This document shows, one piece after another, positions 16,331 to 31,038 of a stretch of DNA of 64,000 nucleotides (the first letter of the stretch is position 1; each line of letters starts with the position of its first letter). The position numbers were made by a program, and so were the translations under genes. The notes beneath the pieces are model-generated. The model made no database searches. It saw only the letters and a program-made list of their open reading frames with translations, and had not been told where the DNA came from. Source of the DNA: Halorubrum salsamenti (GTDB taxonomy: Archaea; Halobacteriota; Halobacteria; Halobacteriales; Haloferacaceae); NCBI RefSeq assembly GCF_007671685.1, contig NZ_VCNL01000001.1:558001-622000 (forward strand). The letters are read 5' to 3'.

Positions 16331-16540
16331 CCACTCATTACTGAAACAGAATCCGAAAGTGATCGTCCAGCCAAATGATGTCGGATTCCGAACTTCATCG
16401 CCGGCTCAAGTCTCGCCTCTCGCACCAGGAAATCTAACTCGATCCAACCACTATCGCCGCTAAGACGGTCGAAACGGAGCATAAAACACTCGATCTTTTA
16501 ACCGACTCATCCTTCGACCCTATCTCAAAACCGCCTCCAT

Positions 16541-18415
16541 TTAGCGCGAGGAGTCAATAGCCTGTTCAACATTGGCGACGAGTGATTCTACTTGCTGCTG
16601 GCTCAATCCGTGGATTCGAGCCGCTTCGAGAATATCCTCGCCAATCGCGTTCGGACAGCCAGAACAGAACAGACCATACTCATCGAGAATGTCCTGAACG
16701 TCCTGGCGTTCGATGAGATCGGCCACCGATTCACCGGATAGGCCGGTCTCGATATCGTATCCTTCGGTAACGTTGTACACGTCGGCGCGGGCTTCCCACG
16801 GAGCATGAAGGAGTCTCCAGAACGCCAGGTTGTATTCGTCAGGTGACCGGCTAAACGTCGCCCAGTAGCCGATGCGGATTTCATCCCACGAGAGATCGTT
16901 TCGGATGACGTATTGGACTAGTCGACCAGGACACTCCATGATGACATGGGTCTGTGAATCGACCTCTGAATGCGATACCAAAGAGTCGGTCGGCTTGTAC
17001 GATATTTGACCGTCGGAAAATGAGATTAATGCTGTGAGCTGCCTTCCGTCGCCACTAAGCCCTATTGACAACGCATGGTTGCCGATCTTTGAAGCGAGTG
17101 TCGAGCCTTGGAGTGACTCAAAATACGCTGCGAGTTCCTCATGTGTTATTACGAATTCCTCGTCGATGAATCGACTACGAGACTCGTAGGCCGCCTCGAC
17201 GATACGCTCAGTCGTCTTGGTGGTGAAGAACGACTCCCGTTCCGGACGTCGAGAGATTTCCTCTGTGCGCCCTGTCCATTTCTCCCCAGGAATCAGGTCC
17301 AGTACGTTGACGGAGTAGTCTCCAAGTCGTGTTATGACATCGCGTGGCCGATTTCGCTGGATTTGTGCTCGATAATCTGCGTGTGACGGCGGCACCAGTT
17401 CGAAGAATTTTGCGAATGGGAGAAAGTAGTTCGGATCGAACATTTCGACGAGTTGTTCGCACTTGTCAAGTTGACCCTCGTTTCGGTTGTGGATCATCTG
17501 TTCTGTCTCTGCCTCGGAGAGGTGATCCCACATGATGGGATAATCAGATGCACCGAACGAAAACCCGGAGGCAATGAGGTCAACCGAGTTGACCTCGTTA
17601 TACACGTTCCAGTTTACGCCTGCGTCGTTGACGTTCAATATGCGGAATCCACCACAGTTGAGCAGTAGGATACTGTCGTTCCATGTGCTCTCGGATTCGA
17701 AACAGACTGCCTCGAGGTTATCGGCGAGTTCGTACGCGGAGCCAGTTGGCAGGCTGTGAACGTTCGTCAATCCAACGTCCTCTAGTCGGGAGGCCAGGCG
17801 TTGATAATTCAATTCAGGTACATAGACGGGTATGTCGGCGTCGAATTTTTCAAGCGTAGGTGGATGGAGGTGGTCAGAGTGTTCATGTGTTATCCAGAGT
17901 GCGTCGATGTCATTCGCCAGCGTCTCAACGTCATGGGTTGGCGGCGGGTACTGCGTCCATCCGCCAAGGAAGGCGTGGCCGTCGATCCAGGGATCCATAA
18001 GCAGCGAGAAGTCGCCGTATTCGACGAGTAGCGCTGCGTGGGAGACAAGTGTGATGTTCGGCAGTTCGTCCGTTATGTCAACCGAAAACCCACCGAATGA
18101 CGGGGTTCTGTCTGGGAGGTCCGCGTAAAGATTGCCATCTGATTCGTAGACGGGATAGGATGTAACAGACTCCCCGGGAATATTCAAGCTATCACCTGTC
18201 TCGGGATCGAATTTCCACCCGTGCTGATGGCAGGTGAGACACTCCTCACTCCCAGGCTCAATCGTTCCGCCCTGATGTGGACACACCGCATCAAGCAGTT
18301 GAGGGTCACCATTGGGAGTTTTGGTGAGAATGTATGGGTCTCCATCGAACTCAACAGGAGAAGGAGTAGATTCGAGCCGAGACGCCGGACCAATGCGAAA
18401 GCGCATAAACTTCAT
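16541..18415 (-). CDS. CMP-N-acetylneuraminate hydroxylase (CMAH)-like protein: Rieske + MBL fold + DUF1858-like domain
   Basis: A 624-aa protein from the ATG at 18415 (other in-frame starts: 18457, 18421, 18406). Residues 40-70 form a Rieske [2Fe-2S] site: C45-P-H47 and C62-x-x-H65. Residues 120-400 are a metallo-beta-lactamase-like fold with LLMDPWIDGHAFLGGW and THEHSDH (H177, H179, D181, H182). Further CMAH-like segments are FSFGASDYPIMWD, NYFLPFAKFFE and SWDEIRIGYWATFSRSPDEY. CMAH converts CMP-Neu5Ac to CMP-Neu5Gc. The last 60 residues add a DUF1858-like redox domain (C584-S-G-C587, then EAARIHGL). With neuA, neuB and neuC in the same island, hydroxylation of a CMP-nonulosonate is the best guess; activity is inferred. 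Confidence 0.82.
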   Translation of the reverse strand: MKFMRFRIGPASRLESTPSPVEFDGDPYILTKTPNGDPQLLDAVCPHQGGTIEPGSEECLTCHQHGWKFDPETGDSLNIPGESVTSYPVYESDGNLYADLPDRTPSFGGFSVDITDELPNITLVSHAALLVEYGDFSLLMDPWIDGHAFLGGWTQYPPPTHDVETLANDIDALWITHEHSDHLHPPTLEKFDADIPVYVPELNYQRLASRLEDVGLTNVHSLPTGSAYELADNLEAVCFESESTWNDSILLLNCGGFRILNVNDAGVNWNVYNEVNSVDLIASGFSFGASDYPIMWDHLSEAETEQMIHNRNEGQLDKCEQLVEMFDPNYFLPFAKFFELVPPSHADYRAQIQRNRPRDVITRLGDYSVNVLDLIPGEKWTGRTEEISRRPERESFFTTKTTERIVEAAYESRSRFIDEEFVITHEELAAYFESLQGSTLASKIGNHALSIGLSGDGRQLTALISFSDGQISYKPTDSLVSHSEVDSQTHVIMECPGRLVQYVIRNDLSWDEIRIGYWATFSRSPDEYNLAFWRLLHAPWEARADVYNVTEGYDIETGLSGESVADLIERQDVQDILDEYGLFCSGCPNAIGEDILEAARIHGLSQQQVESLVANVEQAIDSSR

Positions 18416-18896
18416 GATCATGTATTTACACATATATGTTATGTTTCTCTGTATCATGTCTATTTGATTGATCCTCGCAGATACAGTCGAAAGCTGAATG
18501 AATCTCGATACAAACAGACGCCAACCTGTTCTATATTCAAGAGAATTAGCTTTAATGGTTTCTCAGTGGGCAATAAGAGACGATCAATCACCTGTATCTG
18601 CTCTATCTGAATGGCGGCGTTATTGAGACTGTGAGTGAGTTGACTACTATCTGTGCTGCTCTGTTGAATCCGATGACCGCGCGGGGACCACGATCTCTGA
18701 ATGCGCGTTTATCTCGCTCTTTATTGTCAATGAATTGTAACGAAATACCCAGTGATCTGTATCCTCTCGCTCTCTGCCAAGATTCCATCTCTGAATTCTC
18801 TCGGCAGCGGTCCTGAACCGAGTAGAGAGTAACCCGATTCCGACGCGTTCTGCGGATTCAACAGAACAATTACGTGAATAATAGATGCGGATCAAG
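18416..18896. other. AT-rich intergenic region without a gene
   Basis: About 480 bases between two minus-strand genes, with many stop codons in all frames. Near 18420-18450 it is A/T-rich enough to hold the CMAH-like gene's promoter. No repeat or RNA gene was recognised. Confidence 0.4.
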
Positions 18897-20246
18897 TTAC
18901 GCGTAGCCGAGGTCGCGGAGGTGTTGCTCAACGTTTTTTGAAACGTCTTCGGAGACATCGGTTGACTTCACGTCAACGAGCGACTTTTTAAGTGAAGCGA
19001 GCACCGATTCACCATCTTCATCCGGCGCACCCGCAATCCGGAACCCATCGGAATCTGGCGTCTGAAATTGATATCCGTTTCGGGTGACGACACCAGAAAG
19101 GCATTGGTCAAGCGAATCGATCAGGTTTGTTGGAACTCCCTCACGCTCCATTCGTTCCCTTGACCGAGAGACAAGGCCGTGATATTGCGTTAGCCTTGGA
19201 TCATTAAGAGTGTCGTCAAAGAGGGAAACACCGCGCGTTCCCGATGGCCTATCGACACTCGCAAAATCGAGAACGGTCTGGAACACATCGATGAGCGACA
19301 CTGGGTTCTCGGTCTCTTTTACCCGGGTAGCGGCGTCACCAGACACAACGATCGGAACATGGCAGAGCTCCGTCTGAAGGCCTACAAGGTGCTGGTACAC
19401 GCCCTGTTCGCCGAATGCCTCACCGTGGTCGCTGAGAGTAACTATCATATCCATCGTCTCGGTAAGCTCGTCGAAGATTTGCTCGTAGATGTGAGAGAGA
19501 TAGCGCACCTCGTCTTCGTAGGCTTGCCTGACATCATCGAGTGGTCGATCGTAGCCATCAAGCGCTGTTCTGACGCCATCCGTATCGACTGGGTCGGTCG
19601 TTGCCCACCCCCCGGGCGCTTCGTAAGGGCCATGCGCCTCCATGAGATTGAGAAACACGAACTCTCCTGACGTGTCGAAGGAAGAGGAACGAATCCATTC
19701 TATTGCTTCGCCGCCGCCCATGTCTCCATAACGGCCAATTCCGGCATCCTCCAGCTTGAGATTGAGTCCAGCCTTGAGCGACGGAAGTGTCTTGCAGTCA
19801 CGCGCGAAGCACGCAGAAATCGCCTTCAGGTATCGCAACGGCCCGTCACCGTCGACGGTCTCAATGAATTGCTTCCAGTCAAGGATGTCTGTTTCAAAGC
19901 CCGGGATGTGGGAGGGGCCACTGAGTTCGTCGAACCCCCGGTTCCAATTAAACGCAGGCGTGATGTTCGTGTTGCAAGAAAAACCTCGGACGTGATAGCC
20001 TGATTCCGAGAGTAGCTCCGGGAGCGTCGGCGTGTCACAATCGAACATTCGACTCGCGAACGTCATGTTCACCTCACTGGAGTAGTAGCCAGTAAAAAGT
20101 GAGGCGTGTGCGGGGATAGTACCATGCGATGTCGACCATGCATTTCCGTACCTTTGTCCGTTGAGCCAGTCGAAATTATCGTCGAACGAGTCCTTTCGAA
20201 GCGTGTCGAGAACCACAACTGCAATATTAGGCTTGTCACAACTCAT
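18897..20246 (-). CDS. sulfatase/alkaline-phosphatase superfamily hydrolase
   Basis: A 449-aa member of the alkaline phosphatase-sulfatase superfamily. The metal-binding start is IAVVVLDTLRKDSF, and the nucleophile region reads STSHGTIPAHASLFTGYYSS. A Thr stands where sulfatases carry Cys or Ser, and P-A-H-A-S replaces C-x-P-x-R. The C-terminal metal site is LSDHGEAFGEQGVYQH. Such enzymes hydrolyse or transfer sulfate, phosphate or phosphoglycerol groups on surface glycans. ATG 20246 is chosen because the superfamily start follows at once. It diverges from the flippase gene. Confidence 0.85.
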   Translation of the reverse strand: MSCDKPNIAVVVLDTLRKDSFDDNFDWLNGQRYGNAWSTSHGTIPAHASLFTGYYSSEVNMTFASRMFDCDTPTLPELLSESGYHVRGFSCNTNITPAFNWNRGFDELSGPSHIPGFETDILDWKQFIETVDGDGPLRYLKAISACFARDCKTLPSLKAGLNLKLEDAGIGRYGDMGGGEAIEWIRSSSFDTSGEFVFLNLMEAHGPYEAPGGWATTDPVDTDGVRTALDGYDRPLDDVRQAYEDEVRYLSHIYEQIFDELTETMDMIVTLSDHGEAFGEQGVYQHLVGLQTELCHVPIVVSGDAATRVKETENPVSLIDVFQTVLDFASVDRPSGTRGVSLFDDTLNDPRLTQYHGLVSRSRERMEREGVPTNLIDSLDQCLSGVVTRNGYQFQTPDSDGFRIAGAPDEDGESVLASLKKSLVDVKSTDVSEDVSKNVEQHLRDLGYA

Positions 20247-20402
20247 AGTACCATACACTAGATGGATAAACGACGTGCTTAGTTGTGTAGATTTCGCTCC
20301 TTTCCAGCGGTGCTCCTCCAGGGACACCGATCGTAGTGAGTGGAGTTATATGTCGACAGTTTCCAGCTAATCATGCAACACCTACTACGAGCCATCTCAA
20401 CA

Positions 20403-21833
20403 ATGAGAATCGGACAGACCTCTATCATCGTTTTCGTATCGAAATTGCTGAGTTCAGCACTCGGGTTCATCGCGACATTATATTTCGCCCGTGAGCTTGG
20501 TGCAGAGATTCTCGGATACTTCGCAACTACAATTGCTCTTGTTTCCTGGCTAAAACTCACTGGCGATCTCGGAGTCTCTAACGCGGTCAGAAAGCGGATC
20601 AGCGAGGGCGACGACATCTCGGAATACGCCACCGCGGGAACGATTACAATAATCACATTTGCTGTGGTGATTTCCGTAGCGGTGCTTCTCCTCAATGGAC
20701 TCATAGAGTCGTACGTTGGCCGTCCAGTTGCGGTCTTCGTCGTTCTTCTCTTATGTGCTCAGCTGCTAAAGTCAATGATCGTTTCTCTACTGGAAGGTGA
20801 TCAGATGGTTCATATCTCCGGTATTCTTGAGCCACTTCAAACCGGATCGCGGGCTGCTATTCAGATTGGGCTAGTAATTGTCGGCCTCGGACTATCAGGC
20901 ATGTTTATCGGCCAAGCAGCCGGTTGGATACTGGCCAGTGTCGTAGGGATTTTGTATGTTTCTACATCACCCACTCTGCCAAGCCGCTACCATTTCAAAC
21001 GCCTCTATGACTACGCAAAATACTCTTGGCTTGGGGCACTAGAATCTCGATCCTTCCGTAACATGGATATATTGCTCTTGGGAGTATTCACCTCACCGGC
21101 ACTAGTTGGAGTTTATTCAGTCTCTTGGAGTCTAGCAACATTTCTTACAATCTTCGGTGGTGCTGTTCGATCAGCCCTATTCCCCGAGATTAGCCGATCA
21201 GATGCTAAAGGAGATAGGCAGCAAGTTGCAGCATACCTTACTGACGGGCTCTCGTTTGGTGGACTACTCATCATCCCGGGTTTCGTCGGTGCCATAGTTC
21301 TCGGTGACAGAATCCTACAAATTTACGGGCAAGAATTTACGCAGGGTGTCTCAGTCTTCGGATTCTTAGTTCTTGCCTGTCTCCTCCACGGCTATCAACG
21401 CCAACTGCTTAATGGTCTGAGTGCCATCGATCGCCCCGATCTTTCGTTCCGAGTCAATCTCGTATTTATTGTCGCTAATACAATAGGTAATACCATCCTC
21501 ATCGTCTGGATTGGGTGGGTCGGAGCAGCAATTGCCAGTGTCATATCAACTGCACTCGGGGTGGTATTTGGATATCGAACGCTCCAAAGTCAACTCAGCT
21601 TCATCACTCCCTGGAAAGCAATCGGAGAACAAATTTTCGCAGCTGGAGTTATGGGAATTTGTGTGTATTTGCTCCGACTCCTAATCGAGTCCTCGACTAT
21701 CGGCGTACAAAATATTGCGGTAGTTCTGTTCATTATATCAGTTGGTGCCGGGATCTACTTTCTCACTCTGTTCATAATATCGATGAATTTCCGACGGGTT
21801 ATACAGTCGAATCTCCCGTCTCAGCTATCGTAA
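20403..21833 (+). CDS. Wzx/AglR-type polysaccharide flippase
   Basis: A 476-aa polytopic membrane protein with about 12-14 hydrophobic helices and the start MRIGQTSIIVFVSKLLSSAL. It carries the FARELGAEILGYFATTIALV motif typical of lipid-linked oligosaccharide flippases of the MATE/MVF superfamily. It likely moves dolichyl-linked glycan from the cytosolic to the outer face, where AglB would transfer it. An in-frame ATG at 20373 and GTG at 20340 are alternative starts. Codon use is AT-rich like the rest of the island. Confidence 0.82.
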   Translation: MRIGQTSIIVFVSKLLSSALGFIATLYFARELGAEILGYFATTIALVSWLKLTGDLGVSNAVRKRISEGDDISEYATAGTITIITFAVVISVAVLLLNGLIESYVGRPVAVFVVLLLCAQLLKSMIVSLLEGDQMVHISGILEPLQTGSRAAIQIGLVIVGLGLSGMFIGQAAGWILASVVGILYVSTSPTLPSRYHFKRLYDYAKYSWLGALESRSFRNMDILLLGVFTSPALVGVYSVSWSLATFLTIFGGAVRSALFPEISRSDAKGDRQQVAAYLTDGLSFGGLLIIPGFVGAIVLGDRILQIYGQEFTQGVSVFGFLVLACLLHGYQRQLLNGLSAIDRPDLSFRVNLVFIVANTIGNTILIVWIGWVGAAIASVISTALGVVFGYRTLQSQLSFITPWKAIGEQIFAAGVMGICVYLLRLLIESSTIGVQNIAVVLFIISVGAGIYFLTLFIISMNFRRVIQSNLPSQLS

Positions 21834-22523
21834 ATTTCCCCGTGGTAGACGACTCTTCGTCATTCGTCCCGATATCCCAACACAGCGAGCTTTTCCTTCA
21901 TCTTTTCTGTCGCCTCATGGTACGCTTCAGTACTACCATCGTCTGTGACATCCCGCCGGGAACCATTCTTAATCACTCCCCATGGCATTTTGGTCAGTGA
22001 TTCTGTCCGAAGTCCTCGCGGATGCCCATATAATTTGATAGGAATTGGCCAAATCCGATCTCCAAGCATATTCCCGTGGTCGGATGTAATCACTGTCCAG
22101 CCGGAGAGGTCATTCGCTAGTGCTCTAGCTGCTTCAAATCCCCACTCAAGATTGTTCTGGTAGCCGTTCCACGCCTTGTCTCGGGTCACTTCTCCTGCCT
22201 CAAGAGCTTCCCATACGGTGTCTGGACTAGAGTCGTTGTCATGAATTGTGGTTCCTTCCTTGAGCACGTTTTCAGGGTTCCAATCTTGGAACACAAGTTC
22301 GGGTGTTCGTGGGAACGGAATATGTGGCTGAATGAAATGGATGATCAGACGTTTATCTGGATATTCGTCATGAATCTCCCGCGCTGCGTCTGCGACTTCG
22401 GCTGGTGGGACAGTTTGTTGTTCTTTATCGAAGCGATCGCGCCAAAGTTCTTCGAGGTGGTGGAACTGATTTGGAACAACTTTCGAGGTAACCGGGTTCG
22501 CGGTGATATAAACCGTATCACCG

Positions 22524-22531
22524 AACTCCTC
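22524..22531. repeat. IS target-site duplication, left copy
   Basis: AACTCCTC here is repeated at 23223-23230, just past the other end of the element. An 8-bp duplication is the normal size for IS6-family insertion. Confidence 0.92.
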
Positions 22532-23222
22532 GGTCGCGTTAAGTTTGGCGTGAATTGTGGTAGACTGCGAGGGCTTCGAGCCAATTTTGAGCTGTCTCGA
22601 ACGCGACATTGCTGAAACTATTCGCAAACGATGATGTTCGTCGTTCTATTTCCCAAAAGACACGTTCGATAGCATTCCGATTTCCATGTCGAATGACTTG
22701 AAATCGATAGCCGTCTTCAGCGAGGACTGAGCCGAGATAGTCTGCGTCATCGACGAGAAATTCGACGTTGTTGAGCTGATAGCGCCGGTGTAGCTCGGTG
22801 AGAAACCATCGCGTCGTCTGTTTGTTTGCGGTCGGATAGAGACTTACGTGAAGGATCTCGTTCGTCTGTGGATCAACCGCGCCGTACAGCCAGAACTTCT
22901 GGCCGTGGAGGCGGATCATCTTTTCATCAACCGCGAGTTGATCCTCGGAGACGGTCGAGATCGGCTGTAGATCGGCTTTATGAACCCAGTGATGGATAGC
23001 GACGTGACTGCGATCGATCCCAAACCTTTCGAGATGCTTACTTACCTCGCGTAGTGACATACCGGCCAAATGACAGCGGATCCCTACTTCAATCACCCAG
23101 CGCGGCGTTCGATCTCGCTCCACAAACGACAAGTCGATCCAGGCGATACGTTCGCTGAGGCGGTCGAATTCTGTCATAGACACTCAGAACTCGTCCGCCT
23201 CATCCTCTAACTTAACGCGACC
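22532..23222 (-). mobile_element. IS6-family insertion sequence, 691 bp
   Basis: The element is bounded by perfect 14-bp terminal inverted repeats GGTCGCGTTAAGTT (22532-22545) and AACTTAACGCGACC (23209-23222). It is flanked by the 8-bp direct repeat AACTCCTC, carries one transposase gene and interrupts a sulfatase-like gene. Length, terminal repeats and target duplication fit the small IS6 elements of haloarchaea. It appears intact and may still be mobile. Confidence 0.93.
22539..23183 (-). CDS. IS6-family DDE transposase
   Basis: A 214-aa transposase with an N-terminal helix-turn-helix (LAGMSLREVSKHLERFGIDR) and a DDE catalytic core. The Asp in LAVDEKMIRLHG, the Asp in VEFLVDDADYL and the Glu in RNAIERVFWEIERR are the likely catalytic triad. 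The W-L-Y-G-A-V-D-P motif is usual for haloarchaeal IS6 enzymes. The frame is complete, so the copy may be active. An ATG two codons later is an equally possible start. Confidence 0.93.
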   Translation of the reverse strand: MSMTEFDRLSERIAWIDLSFVERDRTPRWVIEVGIRCHLAGMSLREVSKHLERFGIDRSHVAIHHWVHKADLQPISTVSEDQLAVDEKMIRLHGQKFWLYGAVDPQTNEILHVSLYPTANKQTTRWFLTELHRRYQLNNVEFLVDDADYLGSVLAEDGYRFQVIRHGNRNAIERVFWEIERRTSSFANSFSNVAFETAQNWLEALAVYHNSRQT

Positions 23223-23230
23223 AACTCCTC
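23223..23230. repeat. IS target-site duplication, right copy
   Basis: AACTCCTC, identical to 22524-22531 on the other side of the IS element. Confidence 0.92.
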
Positions 23231-23679
23231 ATCGATGAAATTGTTGTAGGTCCATTCGTCGGTCTTACTGCCTCGGCTCCAAACATGCCGATATTCGTCA
23301 AATTGGCCGGTATCAATTGTCTCTTCGAAGAGATCGAGACGACATGCGTCAAGAATGATGAGATTATCCCACTCCTCATCCATGACACGATTCCGATCAG
23401 AGTCTGAGGTAAGTTTCTGATGTACAGGTGCAATGATCCGCGCGGTAATACGATTTCTCCACCACATACTCCGATGATAATTCTCTGCAATCTCAGAAGC
23501 AGCGTAGGATATTTTATCTAGCATCGTCTACTGAAATGTTCTCTCTACCACTCTTATTAGTTCTGCGGGTTCAAATCACGTGTTTCTGTGTTAATGGTAT
23601 TTGAATAAAGATGTGGGATGAGGAAGAGCAATCATCAACTGGTTTATATCAGAAATCGTCGGACTCAACAGTAGTAGCG

Positions 23680-23980
23680 ACCGCTTTGAGTTAGGTTTGT
23701 AGAGCGAGAGTCGGTACCCGCACAAGCGATAGTGACGAAAACGATGCTGGATGGGACAGATCGTTTTCTGCGTGTCGTGGTGAGTCTGCTGTTACAGAAC
23801 GTCTAGCGTTACCTGTACTACGAATACGTGGTGAGGCCCCGCTGAGGCAGGCGTGGCCTCTGGTGGTGATCTTACAAGGAGTTTATCAATATGATTCGCC
23901 GGGCAGCGTGGACGGTCCTCGCGGTTCGGGTCGTCCCTGTGACCGGCCTCTTCACAACCAGTTCCACCGGTAATTATTAA
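23680..23980 (+). pseudogene. degenerate transposase C-terminal remnant
   Basis: From the GTG at 23732 one frame reads TKTMLDGTDRFLRVVVSLLL, then QNV-stop-RYLYYEYVVRPR, then after more stops SYKEFINMIRRAAWTVLAVR, ending at TAA 23978-23980. Just upstream, ESRYPHKR appears in another frame. The pattern matches the C-terminal end of a haloarchaeal DDE transposase, with several in-frame stops and at least one frameshift. Exact IS family not assigned. The rest of the 23525-24103 gap shows no gene. Confidence 0.6.
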
Positions 23981-24103
23981 CCGAGAAACCGGTATAGAGA
24001 GTGATCGCATCGTCGCGTCAACGACCGATCGCCGCCGACAGCTACTCGCCAGTCCCTCGGTTGAATTATAGCGGTCACCGCGATCAACGAGAGAAGTATG
24101 GCT

Positions 24104-25105
24104 TCAGACCTGCTCAGTGTGGACGTATTGTGAGTCTGTGGATATATTCCGATACCGCACCCAACTGTTCTTGATAACTCTCCCAACATACAGCGCCAAA
24201 TTTTGTACTCTTCGAGGCATATATGTTAGCACGATTAGCAACAGAATCATTACGGTAAATCCTAGTTCAATTGCGTTCTTTCCCTCTGTTTGAGCAGCAT
24301 CGTTATCATCATATCTAATATGTTCTAATAATAGACTCATATGTATCTCACGCTTTTGTTGTTCAGTCAACTGTTGATACAACTGATCCAGATCTCCATC
24401 ACGGAATGCAGATCGTTGTTCCTCAGTAACTTCCCCAGTAGCTCGTAACCGGGCAAATTGGCCGTAAAGTAGCACCTCTCGGAGAGCCGAACCATAGATG
24501 CTAGAATCCCGCATCCTGAGTCTGTAGAGTGGCTCGTTGACATTTCCAATAGAATAATTCTCAGCAATCCGTAGCCAAAGGTCATAGTCCTCAGTATATC
24601 GAAAGTCCTCATCGTAACCACCAACACATTCTACAACACGTTTACGTATCAGTACAGAACCGTGAATGAACCGGTTGCCAGCCAGTAACTGGTCGCGAGT
24701 CACGGACTCCAATACGTGACGTTGAGAACGCCGTCCGTCAGCATACTCTAAGATTGCGCCCGTCCCGAGAAGAGCCAGAGACTCGTTCTCTTGTAAAACT
24801 TCGATTTGTCGTTCAAATCGCTTCGGGTGAGATCGATCGTCTGCGTCTTGGCGGGCGATATACACCCCGTTTGCCTCACGAATCCCACGATTCAACGCAG
24901 ATGGGAGTCCAGATTTGTTTCTTTCAATTAGTGTAATATCGAGTCGATCTTCTGAGGTAATAATATCTACTGTACCATCAGTAGATCCATCATCTACGAC
25001 CACCACTTCGAAATCACGAAACGTTTGTTCCGCAAGTCCATCCAACGCATCCTGTATGGCATTCGCTTCATTATAGGTGGGAAGAACGACACTAATCTCT
25101 GGCAT
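24104..25105 (-). CDS. family 2 glycosyltransferase
   Basis: A 333-aa GT-A enzyme. It starts ISVVLPTYNEANAIQDALDG, with VVVVDDGSTDGT, the metal-binding ARQDADDRSHP, and YTEDYDLWLR as the acceptor/base region. One or two membrane segments (IELGFTVMILLLIVLTYM) near residue 290 suggest membrane association. It probably adds a sugar during assembly of the island's lipid-linked glycan; donor unknown. ATG 25105 is chosen because the GT2 fold starts three residues later. It diverges from the phosphatase-like gene at 25178. Confidence 0.85.
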   Translation of the reverse strand: MPEISVVLPTYNEANAIQDALDGLAEQTFRDFEVVVVDDGSTDGTVDIITSEDRLDITLIERNKSGLPSALNRGIREANGVYIARQDADDRSHPKRFERQIEVLQENESLALLGTGAILEYADGRRSQRHVLESVTRDQLLAGNRFIHGSVLIRKRVVECVGGYDEDFRYTEDYDLWLRIAENYSIGNVNEPLYRLRMRDSSIYGSALREVLLYGQFARLRATGEVTEEQRSAFRDGDLDQLYQQLTEQQKREIHMSLLLEHIRYDDNDAAQTEGKNAIELGFTVMILLLIVLTYMPRRVQNLALYVGRVIKNSWVRYRNISTDSQYVHTEQV

Positions 25106-25177
25106 TTTGCAGGGCGTTATACGTCGTATCAACCATGGGGTTATAACTATGAATGTTCTATGAGAGTTCGGCCAAGA

Positions 25178-26089
25178 ATGTCCTTATCTGATTTCGTCGA
25201 TAAATCGCAGGATTGGTACGCTCGAGCTGGACTCAGAGCAGTTCCACAAATTGGGTTGGATCTTGCTCATAGCGCGATCTCACGAGTCACCTCTCCGTTT
25301 ATTTCTGGTGAGTCTGTGTACCAACGAGAGTGGGATATTCTCGTTGTCTTAGACGCTTGTCGAGTCGACATGTACGAAGATGTAGTGGGTGAGTGTGATT
25401 CCGTCTGGTCTGTTGGTGGGGCATCCCCTGAATGGCTCACAAATACGTTTGAGTCGAGAGACAATTCAGATACGGCATATATCACGGGGAACCCATTCTC
25501 TCGAGAATACCATGCTTCCCAGTTTGGCATGCTTGATGAAGTTTGGCAGTATGGGTGGGATGATCAGTTAGGAACAGTCCCTCCAGAACCCATTACGGAC
25601 CGTGGGATTAGCGTGGCTCGAGAGCAGGCGTATGAACGAGTTATCCTTCACTATATGCAGCCACACTATCCGTTTATCGCCGAAGAGGACACTATCGGGT
25701 ATATCGACCGGTCAGCGTTTGGCGGTGTGGGTGAAGACACAAACGAGGATATCTGGACAAGTATTAAGCTAGGTGAAACAACAGATATTGAGAAAATTCG
25801 GAGTGCATATTGGGACAATCTACGGTATGTATTTGACTATGTCGAGTTACTAATGGAAAATGTCGATGGAACAGTTGTGGTCACTGCAGATCACGGAAAC
25901 GCCTTAGGAGAGTTTGGCATTTGGGGTCATCCAGTTGGTACCCCAGTCCCGGAAGTTCGTCGAGTTCCGTGGGACGTTTATTATTGTAATGATTCGAGAG
26001 AGTACTCGCCTAAAGAATGGGACACACGACAATCAACAACTGATGTGAAACAGCGGCTTGCGGACTTAGGCTATGTTAACGAACGGTAA
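25178..26089 (+). CDS. alkaline-phosphatase/sulfatase-like protein
   Basis: A 303-aa protein related to the IS-split gene nearby. It has WDILVVLDACRVDMYEDVVG, TAYITGNPFSREYHASQFG, RVILHYMQPHYPFIAEE and VVTADHGNALGEFGIWGHP. The D-A-C-R and D-H-G-N metal-site motifs place it in the alkaline phosphatase-sulfatase superfamily, in a short haloarchaeal subgroup seen in surface-polysaccharide loci. It may place or remove a sulfate or phosphate ester on the glycan. ATG 25160 is an alternative start. It converges with neuB, 24 bases away. Confidence 0.75.
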   Translation: MSLSDFVDKSQDWYARAGLRAVPQIGLDLAHSAISRVTSPFISGESVYQREWDILVVLDACRVDMYEDVVGECDSVWSVGGASPEWLTNTFESRDNSDTAYITGNPFSREYHASQFGMLDEVWQYGWDDQLGTVPPEPITDRGISVAREQAYERVILHYMQPHYPFIAEEDTIGYIDRSAFGGVGEDTNEDIWTSIKLGETTDIEKIRSAYWDNLRYVFDYVELLMENVDGTVVVTADHGNALGEFGIWGHPVGTPVPEVRRVPWDVYYCNDSREYSPKEWDTRQSTTDVKQRLADLGYVNER

Positions 26090-26113
26090 AGTGCTAAGGT
26101 CAGTACGACGGGT

Positions 26114-27136
26114 CTATTCGAGATCGGTTCGGTCAATAATGCTATCTGCTTCAATCTGTGTTGTTGTTGTTTTACCAAGGATCTCGAAAAATTCGGATGC
26201 GGGGATTCCGGTACCGGGCCGTTTCGTTGTAATATTGGATTCAGTCAATTCAGCACCCTGAGGAATGACTGTTTTTGAAACAATACTGTGCCTCGCCCAC
26301 TCCGCGATTCCAGCTTCCGTTTCAGTCGGTGGTACACGGTTTCCACGTGTCTCAACGACAACATTGGCATACTCAACAAGCTCACCGAGTTCGTCCGGTT
26401 CGATCGATACCTCCTGATCACCGCCGGGCAAGCGGCGATCAATCGTGAAGTGTTTCTCAATGATATCGGCTCCTTGAGCAAGGGCAACAACTGACGCTTC
26501 AATTCCTTGAGTATGGTCTGAAAAGCCAATTGGCGCGTTCAGAGCATCCTTCATTTCCTGTATCGCTCCCAAATTGACGTTCTCAATAGGGGTAGGATAT
26601 TCGGACACACAATAGAAGAACGCAACGCGGTCGGTGTATTGACTGATGAACTCAGCTGCATCCTCAATTGCAGACATAGAGTGCATGCCAGTCGAGACAA
26701 GGAGTGGCTTTCCGGTTTTCGCCGCAATTTTGAGTATATGGTAGTTTGTTACTTCTCCAGATCCAATTTTGTACGCGGGAGTGTCAATCTCATCAAGAAG
26801 TTTCACAGCCTCCGGCGAGAATGGAGTTGATAAGAAATCAATTCCTTTACTTTGGCAATACTGCTGTAGTGTTCGGTGTTCTTCGATACTCAATGCCTGT
26901 TCAGACATCCGCTCATAGAGATCCTCCATATCGAGACTCTCCATTCCTGGAGCAGACATCTCCGCTTCGGGAATATGGGTTTGGAACTTGATCGCATCTG
27001 CACCTGCTGCTGCTGCCTCTTCAATAAATACCTTCGCGAGGTCTATCCGCCCAAGATAGTTCACTCCCGCCTCTGCGATGATGTACGGGCCAGTTGAGTC
27101 AGCAAAGATACCCTCGATTGAGTTGGTGTCGCTCAT
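26114..27136 (-). CDS. neuB: N-acetylneuraminate synthase family protein (NeuB/LegI)
   Basis: A 340-aa enzyme that condenses phosphoenolpyruvate with ManNAc or a related hexosamine to give a nonulosonic acid. The TIM barrel starts YIIAEAGVNYLGRIDLAKVF. Motifs include AIKFQTHIPEAEMSAPG, FLSTPFSPEAVKLLDEIDTP, YKIGSGEVTNYHILK, IGFSDHTQGIEASVVALAQG and IEKHFTIDRRLPGGDQE. The C-terminal SAF (antifreeze-like) domain holds NITTKRPGTGIPASEFFEIL. Its ATG overlaps the neuA stop (ATGA). Sequence alone does not separate sialic from legionaminic acid synthase. Confidence 0.93.
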   Translation of the reverse strand: MSDTNSIEGIFADSTGPYIIAEAGVNYLGRIDLAKVFIEEAAAAGADAIKFQTHIPEAEMSAPGMESLDMEDLYERMSEQALSIEEHRTLQQYCQSKGIDFLSTPFSPEAVKLLDEIDTPAYKIGSGEVTNYHILKIAAKTGKPLLVSTGMHSMSAIEDAAEFISQYTDRVAFFYCVSEYPTPIENVNLGAIQEMKDALNAPIGFSDHTQGIEASVVALAQGADIIEKHFTIDRRLPGGDQEVSIEPDELGELVEYANVVVETRGNRVPPTETEAGIAEWARHSIVSKTVIPQGAELTESNITTKRPGTGIPASEFFEILGKTTTTQIEADSIIDRTDLE

Positions 27137-27828
27137 TTCGTCTTTTCCTGCTCGTTGAGACGAGGAATAAGTTTCCGTACTAGCCAAAGATCGAAATGAG
27201 TGTCAACGTCAACAGACCGCTTCTCCGGCATAGTATAGAGCACTGTTTTTCCCGCTTGAAGACTCTCCGTAGCTAGAAATGCTGGGCTTGCCGTGATATA
27301 GATGGCCCCATTTTCCACATACTCTGGGGATTTATCCTGTCGGCGCTTCCGGTCATCGTTATAATTTTTTCGAACGGCTCCATCTGGGTGCTTCTCCCAG
27401 CGGTAACTATGATCCTCATAAACGGAGACCAACGAAGTCCCGTTAGACTCTTCGAATGTCATAATCGCGTTCTCGATATCATCCGCTGTTCGAAGTGGTG
27501 AGGTTGGCTGAAGAAGAACAACGTGAGTCCACTTATCGGCAGATTCGTGTTCTAAGGCATGTCTAATGACTGGTTCTGTTGGCGCCTCATCAGTCGCGAG
27601 CTCATCTGGGCGGAGATATGGAACCGTAGCCCCACACTCTACTGCTGTATCAGCGATCTCTTGGCTGTCCGTACTGACGACAACATCGTCAATACTTTCT
27701 GATTGCTGCGCAGCCTCGATTGAATGTGCTATGAGTGGTCTTCCAGCAACATCCACGATGTTTTTATTTTCGATACCCTTTGACCCACCTCTCGCAGGGA
27801 TAAGGGCTACATACGATCTGTCGCACAT
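27133..27828 (-). CDS. neuA: acylneuraminate cytidylyltransferase (CMP-nonulosonate synthase)
   Basis: A 231-aa enzyme that activates the sugar with CTP. The N-terminal signature is LIPARGGSKGIENKNIVDVA, followed by VVVSTDSQEIADTA, VVLLQPTSPLRTADDIENAI, YVENGAIYIT and SVDVDTHFDLWL. The length is that of the short NeuA/LegF class without an extra domain. It sits one base after neuC and overlaps neuB by four bases, so the three are one operon. Its product, a CMP-nonulosonate, is the expected substrate of the CMAH-like protein at 16541 and of a transferase. Confidence 0.93.
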   Translation of the reverse strand: MCDRSYVALIPARGGSKGIENKNIVDVAGRPLIAHSIEAAQQSESIDDVVVSTDSQEIADTAVECGATVPYLRPDELATDEAPTEPVIRHALEHESADKWTHVVLLQPTSPLRTADDIENAIMTFEESNGTSLVSVYEDHSYRWEKHPDGAVRKNYNDDRKRRQDKSPEYVENGAIYITASPAFLATESLQAGKTVLYTMPEKRSVDVDTHFDLWLVRKLIPRLNEQEKTK

Positions 27829-27829
27829 A

Positions 27830-28999
27830 CTATAGATTTAACTGCTCTGGCTTCATTGGCTGTTTCATTGTCAGGTCGGTCTGGCTGATAATTTCCTTCA
27901 TTTTTTCACCTGTATTTCCATTTCCATAGAGGGTTGACCTCTCATATGGACCAACAGAGAGTTGCTGCTCAATACCTTTTTTAATATCCTCTGTATTACA
28001 GTCCACATCGAGGACGTTTGGCCCCCGCTCACGCATCTGTTGGCGGCCGCCAATATTCACTGTCGGCTTCCCTAGATACGAACATTCTCTGATCCCAACA
28101 CTTGAGTTCCCAACCATACATGCTGAATTGCTCACAAGCGTCAGATAATCATCAGGATGCATATTAATGTAGAACCGGACATCGTCTGGAGATCGCTGAT
28201 CTCGGTATTCACGGATCGCCTTCGAAACCTGATTCGTGCCAGCGTCCATGTTTGGCCAAAACCAGAACGCTTGTACATCAAGATCATCCACTGCGTTGAT
28301 TAGCTCCCATGTCCGGTCATATTCGCTCATATACTCTGTTGCGACTGGATGATACTGAACGACGAGATAATCCTCATCTATATCAATCTGGGCTCCGACA
28401 CCTGCGTAGTCTTCCTGTGGATCGTATCGATTGTCATCATTTTGTTCAATATCCTCAACAAGATCGATCGAGGGACAGCCAGTAAGAAACACCCGATCAG
28501 TTTCCTCACCTAACCCCTCAACAACATCTACACTTTTTTCTGTGGATACAAAGTGGTAATCCGCCATCTTCGTCGTCGCGTGGCGCACCTTTTCATCAAT
28601 GGATCCAGTAATTTCTCCACCTTGTGTGTGAATGACCGGGATATTCAGATACGACGCAGCCAGAGTAACAGACATCGTTTCGTACCTATCTGCGATAGTG
28701 ATCACTCCGTCTGGATCAAGTTCATCAAGTACGGAGGTAAATTCGATCATTCCAAGACCAGTTGTTTTCGCAGAGGCGACAGGTGTTCCCCCCTCCAATA
28801 CGTTGTATAGCTCGCGCTCTATCTCGAGCCCGTCTTCACGCAACAACTCAGACAAAGTACCATATTTTCGGATCATAGATGCACCGGCAACGATGATGTC
28901 TAACTGAGTATCTGGGTCACTATCTAGCGCATGGAGAAGCGTGCCTGTGCGGGCGTAATTTCCTCTGCTAGTCAAGCAGATCGCAACGTGTGTCGACAT
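27830..28999 (-). CDS. neuC: UDP-GlcNAc 2-epimerase, hydrolysing (NeuC/LegG family)
   Basis: A 389-aa GT-B-like epimerase. It starts VAICLTSRGNYARTGTLLHA, with the catalytic-site TIADRYETMSVTLAASYLNI, HTQGGEITGSIDEKVRHATT, VFLTGCPSIDLVED and a C-terminal CMVGNSSVGIRECSYLGKPT. The hydrolysing class converts UDP-GlcNAc to ManNAc and UDP, the first committed step of sialic acid synthesis. It is the first gene of the neuC-neuA-neuB operon. UDP-GlcNAc would come from glmS and glmU. A legionaminate-type substrate is possible, but none of the genes needed to make one is in the window. Confidence 0.9.
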   Translation of the reverse strand: MSTHVAICLTSRGNYARTGTLLHALDSDPDTQLDIIVAGASMIRKYGTLSELLREDGLEIERELYNVLEGGTPVASAKTTGLGMIEFTSVLDELDPDGVITIADRYETMSVTLAASYLNIPVIHTQGGEITGSIDEKVRHATTKMADYHFVSTEKSVDVVEGLGEETDRVFLTGCPSIDLVEDIEQNDDNRYDPQEDYAGVGAQIDIDEDYLVVQYHPVATEYMSEYDRTWELINAVDDLDVQAFWFWPNMDAGTNQVSKAIREYRDQRSPDDVRFYINMHPDDYLTLVSNSACMVGNSSVGIRECSYLGKPTVNIGGRQQMRERGPNVLDVDCNTEDIKKGIEQQLSVGPYERSTLYGNGNTGEKMKEIISQTDLTMKQPMKPEQLNL

Positions 29000-29084
29000 A
29001 CCGCTGGACAGCACCGTCATACCTAAATACGCTTCGAACCGTCTAAGCCAACAACACCATTACAATAGACACATTCTTTTTAAA

Positions 29085-30902
29085 ATGAAAATAATTCTAA
29101 CAGATCATTCTGATATTCCATCCAGACAGTTGGTAGGTGCGTCCCGTATTGTCACGTTCAACAATGAAGCGTACAACCAGATCGATACGGGAACAGTGGT
29201 GATGGGCTCGGACTATCAGCCTAATAATATCGCGACAGACGAAGAGTTTGATAAGCTCCGTGAATGGCTTGCCGATCAATTCATTTATGATGGAATTGAC
29301 ATTGGGCCGCTTATCCAAAATACGTTTATTGATCTGTTTGGGTACGAGCTTATCAGGCAAACTAAAACAATTAAAAATATTCTCCAAACGGAGCAACCAA
29401 CAGAGGTAGTAGTTTACTCTAACCCGGTTCCTGTTTATGAATGGATCCCCCTCGGATCCGGGGAAATAATACCCGGTGTCCCTGAAGCCGTAGCTACTGC
29501 TGAAAATATTGAGGTTCAGGAGTACACGAAATCAATAACAGCAAGTCGTATTAAAGATCGAACTTTTAGATCAATTGGTCCGAGTGTTCTTCGACCACTT
29601 GATTGGGGGTCTGAGTTCATCTCACGAATGCGGGGTAACAGGCCATCACACGATTCGGATCTTGTTTTATTCGTGTTTACAAAAAACAATATCAATGTCG
29701 TTGAACCAGTCGTCGACGCGCTTGATGACCGTGTGAACACCACGGTAGTTACACATGCACATGGTTTTACGAATACTGGACAAGATATCTCAACCTCTTT
29801 GTCCAACTTGAATGTGCCAGTTGTCCCGTTAGCGAAGTATAGTTCACTCACATCGTACAAGGAGGAAATTAAAATAGTGAGACAATTGGCGAGGAACCCA
29901 GACTCTGCTCAACCATTTTCTGACCAGAAGCCACACAGTATCAGCGGAGTCAACCTCACACCCGCACTACAATCCCGCGGATGGCTGTATGCTGCCCTTC
30001 AATATCCCAGAGTCGCCCGGTATGTTCATATGATGCAGAATATGCTCAGAGCTGAACAACCACAGTCAGTTCTTCTGAAAAATGACGGACCCCTCCCGAC
30101 ACGAACAGTGGCAACGGCTGCAGAAAATAAAGGCGTTCCGACACTATTGGTCCAACACGGTGTAGATCTCCCGTCTCGGAGATATGTCCCTGTTTCAGAT
30201 CAGATCGCTGTCTGGGGTGAACGGTGGCAAGAAGTGATGGAGAGGAAGGGCGTTGAGCGTGAGCGAATCAAGATTACTGGTGCACCACAATTTGACCATT
30301 TAGCTCGCTATTCTGCGAAAGATCAATCTCAAATCCGTGAGCAACTCTCTGTCTCTATTGACTGTGGAACATTTACTGTGCTTCTCGCTTCCCAACCCTT
30401 TGATGATACGATACGTTCCAATTTAGTCCAAACGGCTATCGGGGCAGTTCGTGACCTACCGAACGTGGAATTACTTCTTCGTCCGCACCCGAGAGAGGAT
30501 ACAGAACTTCACAAAAAAGCAGCTTCGGATATTCCAAATGTCCAAGTCGTTGAGAGTGATGATATTCATGATTTATTGTTTGCATCCGATGTTGTTTTAG
30601 CGCTCCGGTCGACAGTAGTGCTTGAAGCAAGCTTATTGAATCGACCAGTTGTGATTCTTGATGTTTCAGCTGAAAAGCCACCAATCGAAGAGTTTTCGGA
30701 GCAAAATGGATTTACCGAGGTTACGAATCGAGCCGAAGCGCGAGAATGTATTGAAGAAATGAAAGATAGCCCCAAAAGTGTAGCACGTTATACTAACCAA
30801 CAGCCTAGATTTGGGAGAGAATACGCTCTCAACGAAGATGGAGGTGCAGCCGGTCGAGTTGCTAGAATCATACAAAATCTGATTGTATCCAAATCAAACT
30901 AG
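29085..30902 (+). CDS. GT-B glycosyltransferase with HP and ST motifs, candidate sialyl/nonulosonate transferase
   Basis: A 605-aa protein. The C-terminal half carries VPTLLVQHGVDLPSR, IKITGAPQFDHL, LLLRPHPRED (about residues 463-472, the HP motif) and VVLALRSTVVLEASLLNRPV (an ST motif near 507). HP plus SS/ST motifs mark bacterial sialyltransferases (GT38/GT52/GT80/GT97), but CDP-glycerol phosphotransferases and capsule KpsS-like enzymes share similar elements. It diverges from neuC across an 85-base gap, and that placement favours a role in transferring the CMP-activated sugar. The N-terminal half is unrecognised. Confidence 0.65.
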   Translation: MKIILTDHSDIPSRQLVGASRIVTFNNEAYNQIDTGTVVMGSDYQPNNIATDEEFDKLREWLADQFIYDGIDIGPLIQNTFIDLFGYELIRQTKTIKNILQTEQPTEVVVYSNPVPVYEWIPLGSGEIIPGVPEAVATAENIEVQEYTKSITASRIKDRTFRSIGPSVLRPLDWGSEFISRMRGNRPSHDSDLVLFVFTKNNINVVEPVVDALDDRVNTTVVTHAHGFTNTGQDISTSLSNLNVPVVPLAKYSSLTSYKEEIKIVRQLARNPDSAQPFSDQKPHSISGVNLTPALQSRGWLYAALQYPRVARYVHMMQNMLRAEQPQSVLLKNDGPLPTRTVATAAENKGVPTLLVQHGVDLPSRRYVPVSDQIAVWGERWQEVMERKGVERERIKITGAPQFDHLARYSAKDQSQIREQLSVSIDCGTFTVLLASQPFDDTIRSNLVQTAIGAVRDLPNVELLLRPHPREDTELHKKAASDIPNVQVVESDDIHDLLFASDVVLALRSTVVLEASLLNRPVVILDVSAEKPPIEEFSEQNGFTEVTNRAEARECIEEMKDSPKSVARYTNQQPRFGREYALNEDGGAAGRVARIIQNLIVSKSN

Positions 30903-31038
30903 CTATTACTGCAGACCCTTGTTTGCCAGCAGATTGTATTATCTCTACTCTTGTTATATTTATATTAAGATATATGAGATCTATCAAAAACAATCAATCG
31001 AGAACCAACAACGGGGTGTCTGACACCTCCAATCACAA

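Follow-up and report, generated by a model that had tools for sequence, protein, structure and literature searches.

How might an enzyme that resembles the CMP-sialic acid hydroxylase CMAH of animals function in a haloarchaeon, and what would a two-cysteine domain fused to its C-terminus contribute? The question is posed by a gene of Halorubrum salsamenti within the 64,000-nucleotide stretch of contig NZ_VCNL01000001.1 that was analyzed here (hereafter the window). According to the available part of the source consulted, animal CMAH requires cytochrome b5 and its reductase (PMC9219854). Judged from its sequence, the archaeal tail is plausibly a built-in thiol module for a Rieske enzyme, and the extra two-cysteine domain may control or feed the iron-sulfur center.

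Organization of the CMAH-like protein

The CMAH-like gene is contained in an open frame on the minus strand (16541–18457) of 638 codons counted from the first ATG, and residue numbers refer to this 638-residue frame unless another start is specified. Two homologs begin at the position of Met-18 (18406) and this start, which yields 621 residues, is therefore probably the correct one. Coordinates of the principal features are collected in Table 1. The ligand motifs Cys-59-Pro-His-61 and Cys-76-x-x-His-79 can be read in the Rieske domain, for which the best PDB match of the predicted structure in Foldseek was a Rieske oxygenase (E 5e-6). The metal motif T-H-E-H-S-D-H falls within the metallo-beta-lactamase (MBL)-like domain.

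Table 1. Features of the CMAH-like gene and of the nearby nonulosonate genes in the window.
Feature	Coordinates	Strand	Basis
CMAH-like gene (Rieske + metallo-beta-lactamase + C-terminal core + CxxC tail)	16541..18406	(-)	621 aa from likely start M18
Rieske [2Fe-2S] domain, residues 25-102	18152..18385	(-)	Pfam PF00355 E 2.9e-10
Metallo-beta-lactamase-like domain, Pfam-matched part, residues 135-260	17678..18055	(-)	PF12706 E 2e-9, PF13483 E 7e-8
DUF1858/TIGR03980-like tail domain, residues 578-628	16574..16726	(-)	Pfam, NCBIfam, profile vs PDB
CSGCP motif (Cys598, Cys601), residues 598-602	16652..16666	(-)	C-x-G-C-P invariant, 4/4 homologs
Cys73, three residues ahead of Rieske ligand C76	18239..18241	(-)	Copy comparison
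NeuB-like sialic acid synthase	26114..27187	(-)	TIGR03569 E 9.8e-100, under cut-off; PF03102 over cut-off
NeuA-like CMP-nonulosonate cytidylyltransferase	27133..27828	(-)	Best match TIGR03584 PseF E 2.7e-46, under cut-off
NeuC-like UDP-GlcNAc 2-epimerase	27830..29020	(-)	TIGR03568 338 bits, over cut-off 235.9

The protein was compared with what we take to be the mouse CMAH sequence. The two sequences aligned over 541 residues with 25.9% identity (E 1e-32 with four subjects in the set). The alignment stopped at residue 547, ahead of the tail. The Rieske ligand positions 54, 56, 75, and 78 of the presumed mouse sequence agree with the pig CMAH sites named in the accessible part of PMC9219854. 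Animal CMAH and the archaeal protein both have an N-terminal Rieske domain and an MBL-like domain carrying H-x-H-x-D-H, and remain homologous through the C-terminal part as far as residue 547 of the archaeal protein, whereas the archaeal protein has ~80 extra residues with the CxxC domain, possesses four additional conserved cysteines, and is only 25.9% identical to its animal counterpart. Judged by these alignments, the archaeal protein is the whole animal CMAH architecture with a tail attached. The sequence-only reading that a thiol domain is fused to a CMAH-like enzyme is borne out by this arrangement, and its claim that the animal enzyme lacks the domain agrees with the presumed mouse protein, which ends before the tail. 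In one alignment the mouse terminus was paired with the first cysteine of the tail, which was taken as chance because the spacing was off by ~30 residues.

Assignment of the C-terminal tail

A DUF1858 layout, comprising CxxCP, a helix, and I-H-G, had been proposed for the tail. The CSGCP motif and the segment EAARIHGL (residues 611–618; window 16627–16604) were found where that proposal placed them, and IERQDVQ occurs at residue 582. The accompanying cysteine numbers, C584 and C587, apply if translation starts at Met-15, but become C581 and C584 with the likelier start at Met-18. Search of the C-terminus with the Pfam DUF1858 profile (PF08984) returned the predicted match with E 0.002 for the whole protein and E 8.4e-5 for the last 86 residues, although the score of 22.8–23 bits is lower than the curated gathering cut-off of 32.2 bits. 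Similarly, the NCBIfam family TIGR03980, ‘hybrid cluster protein-associated redox disulfide domain’, matched the tail with E 2.5e-9 and ~37 bits (37.7 at most) against a curated cut-off of 44.95 bits, such that the tail scores under both thresholds; the TIGR03980 score reached 42 bits in genome G113. When scanned separately, all four homologous tails matched both families (best E 8.6e-8 for DUF1858 and 3.9e-11 for TIGR03980). A profile of the four tails also matched the solved DUF1858-like protein of PDB entry 2k53 (3.3e-8) in an alignment that spans the CxxCP motif. The C-x-x-C-P sequence opening a helix and a later H-G are invariant in the four tails. By these sequence criteria, the match to DUF1858/TIGR03980 is real and far above chance, yet formally weak by the curated cut-offs. 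A chance match is ruled out because all four tails match both families and the strong TIGR03980 matches in 392 genomes of the order Halobacteriales are CMAH tails exclusively. A sequencing or frame artifact is likewise ruled out as the source of the tail, which is in frame without a stop in all four homologs.

Selenoproteins of the DUF1858 family in which the motif takes the form CxxU are recorded in the accessible portions of two reports (PMC9312934, PMC13188914). By analogy, this variant argues for redox-active thiols. The tail might instead be a non-redox docking or dimerization domain in which the cysteines bind metal or merely stabilize the fold, in keeping with a small domain that is helical in prediction. 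The invariance of C-x-G-C-P in the four tails speaks against this explanation, as does the selenocysteine found in the motif of the family members just cited, which is typical of redox use; the explanation is considered improbable, ranking below the two further rivals discussed in the following sections.

Distribution of the CMAH-like protein and its tail

The CMAH-like protein is rare. Matches at E ≤ 1e-30 were detected in three of the 392 genomes of the order, namely the genome of origin, G113 (54%), and G224 (55%). The G224 match covers residues 254–635 only, and two stops are present in the wider match. The genome of origin was the sole match at E ≤ 1e-20 among 294 genomes drawn from the phylum. 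A further scan of genome contigs produced just two loci, both haloarchaeal, in Halobellus rufus (54%) and Halovenus rubra (55%). The Halovenus rubra and G224 copies give an identical protein and were counted once, leaving four homologs, including that in the window, of which three are full-length and one is N-terminally truncated. A survey for the same fusion among homologs, as the earlier reading had suggested, showed that the tail is kept in all four, the truncated copy included. The Halovenus rubra gene (L006 1185–2348, same as L004) is a remnant that lacks the Rieske domain together with half of the MBL part but retains an intact CxxC tail; this genome has NeuB and no NeuC match.

Relatives on plasmids were partial, with none of 17 records reaching 80% query coverage. 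The haloarchaeal MBL-fold proteins of Halobaculum and Halolamina plasmids (L036 5998–7422 and L037 4998–6341) align to residues 134–550 with 24–26% identity, but both the Rieske domain and the CxxC tail are missing. A Natrinema plasmid encodes a Rieske protein that stands alone (L052 1483–1785) and is similar to the Rieske domain of the CMAH-like protein (41%); no sialic-acid gene was discerned by eye in the adjoining frames. The CMAH-like protein had no match in the phages or viral contigs searched, nor did the tail alone match the plasmids.

The tail itself was traced with the family and tail profiles. At E ≤ 0.01, TIGR03980 matched 16 of the 392 genomes of the order. Three of these matches are strong (E 1e-8 to 3e-10) and correspond to the CMAH tails; the remaining 13 are weak (E 0.002–0.008). 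From reading of the frames, we take 11 of the weak matches to be akin to N-domains of hemerythrin-containing repair proteins and two to metal-binding domains. The tail is ruled out as a common haloarchaeal domain, as the 13 other matches are weak and belong to other protein types. Across the phylum, the tail profile matched 12 of 294 genomes at E ≤ 1e-4, comprising the genome of origin and 11 others in which the matches sit in open frames of 64–121 residues; the frames that were read encode small proteins in which a GMGCLGC-like motif occurs. The tail of the CMAH-like protein shares with the DUF1858/TIGR03980 family the C-x-G-C-P motif, the helix after it, and the H-G motif; in other genomes of the phylum the domain is a small protein that stands alone, whereas here it is fused to a Rieske enzyme. 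The pattern fits a free-standing CxxC protein that was later fused to the enzyme. Outside the order, the small CxxC proteins (L041–L051) mostly adjoin a long gene with an ‘ERISQKIE...EEFGV...AERTV’-like start and a ‘MRYYIR..TLFLRG’-like gene in a recurring neighborhood. Between copies of the CMAH-like protein, identity is 66–86% in the CxxC helix, 54–66% in the whole tail, 47–50% in the Rieske domain, 56–72% in the MBL part, and 46–64% in the C-terminal core. By this measure the conservation of the tail equals or exceeds that of most of the predicted catalytic parts.

The tail may alternatively assist in the assembly or repair of a metal center, either the Rieske cluster or the mononuclear site, for example when oxygen or nitric oxide has damaged it. 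The kinship of most of the weak haloarchaeal TIGR03980 matches with N-domains of hemerythrin-containing proteins, apparently of the iron-center repair type, is in keeping with such a role, but the resemblance to these N-domains is weak (E about 0.002–0.008). The available texts of several reports also point in this direction: SufT, which acts in Fe-S maturation, is fused to DUF1858 in some proteins and to a Rieske-type domain in others (PMC4982691), the denitrification regulon of Bradyrhizobium includes a DUF1858 gene (PMC6710368), and DrpB of nitrate-respiring Thermus contains a DUF1858 domain (PMC6282519). A role in repair or maturation competes seriously with a thiol switch or guard and, while unlikely, is the least unlikely of the alternatives.

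Genomic setting and probable substrate

The NeuC-NeuA-NeuB set (26114–29020) is located 7.7 kb from the CMAH-like gene in the window, and genes in the same order lie ~7 kb from the homolog in Halobellus rufus. The set is within 8 kb of the gene in two of the three genomes whose CMAH-like gene is intact, and NeuB is present in all four carrier genomes. NeuC was detected in 30 of the 392 genomes of the order. Both sampled genomes that carry the CMAH-like gene intact are among them, and the genome with the truncated gene is not; the probability that both intact-gene genomes would have NeuC at random is ~0.006 for a sample of two, one of which is the window's own genome. In G113, sialic-acid genes are absent from ~12–19 kb either side of the CMAH-like gene, which counts against the preferred explanation outlined below. 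NeuB and NeuC in G113 are distant from that gene in a nonulosonate cluster with dehydratase, aminotransferase, and 4-amino-sugar genes. This placement and gene content suggest that the substrate there may differ, and perhaps is a di-amino nonulosonate.

No LegC-family aminotransferase was found at E ≤ 1e-40 in the genome of origin, which is 99.96% complete, compared with three in G113, two in G224, and three in Halobellus rufus. The absence points to Neu5Ac, rather than legionaminic acid, in the strain from which the window derives. Legionaminic acid accordingly is an unlikely product in the window, whereas G113 has such a pathway.

The G+C content of 16400–31000 is 48.7% compared with ~65% on both flanks, on account of which this stretch is probably an acquired surface-glycan island. 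It contains the CMAH-like gene, a flippase-like gene, glycosyltransferases, and NeuC-NeuA-NeuB. Elsewhere in the stretch, two pieces (21860–22627 and 23207–23524) are similar to opposite ends of a sulfatase-like protein (25025–26089), and a transposase-like frame (22539–23183), which we take to be IS6-like in appearance, is situated between them. On the basis of this resemblance, 21860–23524 is an interrupted paralog of the sulfatase-like protein.

Redox environment of the Rieske cluster

Cytochrome b5 (PF00173) was not detected in any of the four carrier genomes. The gene is classified as CMAH-like, rather than as CMAH, because this electron supply was not detected, although dependence on cytochrome b5 perhaps is a property of the animal enzyme and not of the family. 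Ferredoxins occur in haloarchaea. Core cysteines 73, 252, 268, and 333 are present in all archaeal copies that cover the region and are missing from the presumed mouse CMAH. Cys-73 is present in the three tail-bearing copies that include the Rieske region, and is absent both from the presumed mouse CMAH and from five other haloarchaeal Rieske domains, which speaks against its being a usual feature of Rieske domains in haloarchaea. Cys-73 is positioned beside the Rieske ligand Cys-76 and, if the tail has an exchange partner, would be the foremost candidate.

An AlphaFold2 model of the CMAH-like protein was built on an alignment of three sequences. With a mean pLDDT of 49 and pTM of 0.30, the model is too poor to place the tail relative to the cluster: pLDDT values were 74–89 in the Rieske blocks, most of the MBL part was poor, and the tail scored ~25–56. 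Modeled alone, the tail gave a weak model (pLDDT 59) that matched no solved structure at E ≤ 0.001.

Electrons might enter the enzyme through the tail, passing from a reductase or thioredoxin via the CxxC motif to the Rieske cluster in place of cytochrome b5. The lack of cytochrome b5 in the four carrier genomes and the presence of the fusion in every copy found are consistent with this route, but the AlphaFold2 model (pLDDT 49) is too poor to show contact between tail and cluster. A dithiol is a two-electron couple, moreover, whereas the Rieske cluster accepts one electron; single-electron transfer directly from a dithiol to the cluster is unusual chemistry, we know of no Rieske oxygenase that is fed by a dithiol, and haloarchaeal ferredoxins could perform the task. 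The requirement of animal CMAH for cytochrome b5 and its reductase, in the portion of PMC9219854 available, gives the proposal its rationale. Direct electron feeding via the CxxC motif nevertheless is bolder and less likely than a switch or guard, and is viewed as more doubtful than repair or maturation.

Discussion

In the reading that we prefer, with a probability of roughly 40%, the protein is a CMAH-type hydroxylase of CMP-sialic acid, and its fused dithiol serves in cis as a thiol-disulfide switch or guard. The neighboring NeuC-NeuB-NeuA enzymes would supply CMP-Neu5Ac as the probable substrate of the hydroxylase. The C-terminus of the enzyme would have gained its tail by fusion with a small CxxC protein of the DUF1858/TIGR03980 type that had been free-standing, and the CxxC motif of the tail would act as a redox-active dithiol. 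As the cell has no detected cytochrome b5, the Rieske cluster probably would be reduced by another carrier, such as ferredoxin. The dithiol would operate in cis, plausibly via Cys-73 beside Cys-76, and thereby hold the cluster loop in a reduced state. The CxxC switch or guard would then permit the enzyme to be active under suitable redox conditions only. We consider this switch or guard more probable than direct electron donation by the tail, and a part in regulation, protection, or maturation is no less likely than such a handover of electrons. That the protein is a haloarchaeal CMP-Neu5Ac hydroxylase which makes Neu5Gc without cytochrome b5 and draws its electrons through the fused dithiol, as a thiol-fed Rieske oxygenase, is the least likely of the readings considered. 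The accessible parts of the literature searched contained no experiment that ties a DUF1858 domain to a Rieske enzyme, which counts against the preferred explanation.

A 2018 survey reportedly covered the distribution of CMAH. Chordates, sponges, algae, and bacteria are the groups named in connection with Neu5Gc and CMAH in the available text of one review (PMC8227644). No report of an archaeal CMAH was found in the accessible text of the literature searched on CMAH and Neu5Gc, including PMC8227644 and PMC6137143, with subscription papers mostly outside that search. Work on Neu5Gc and CMAH so far has been almost wholly in animals. An archaeal CMAH-like gene near NeuC-NeuA-NeuB would extend the range of Neu5Gc chemistry, would provide a soluble prokaryotic enzyme for study, and would bear on the origin of animal CMAH. 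The fused CxxC domain would offer both a handle on how CMAH may function without cytochrome b5 and a testable role for DUF1858, a domain of unknown function.
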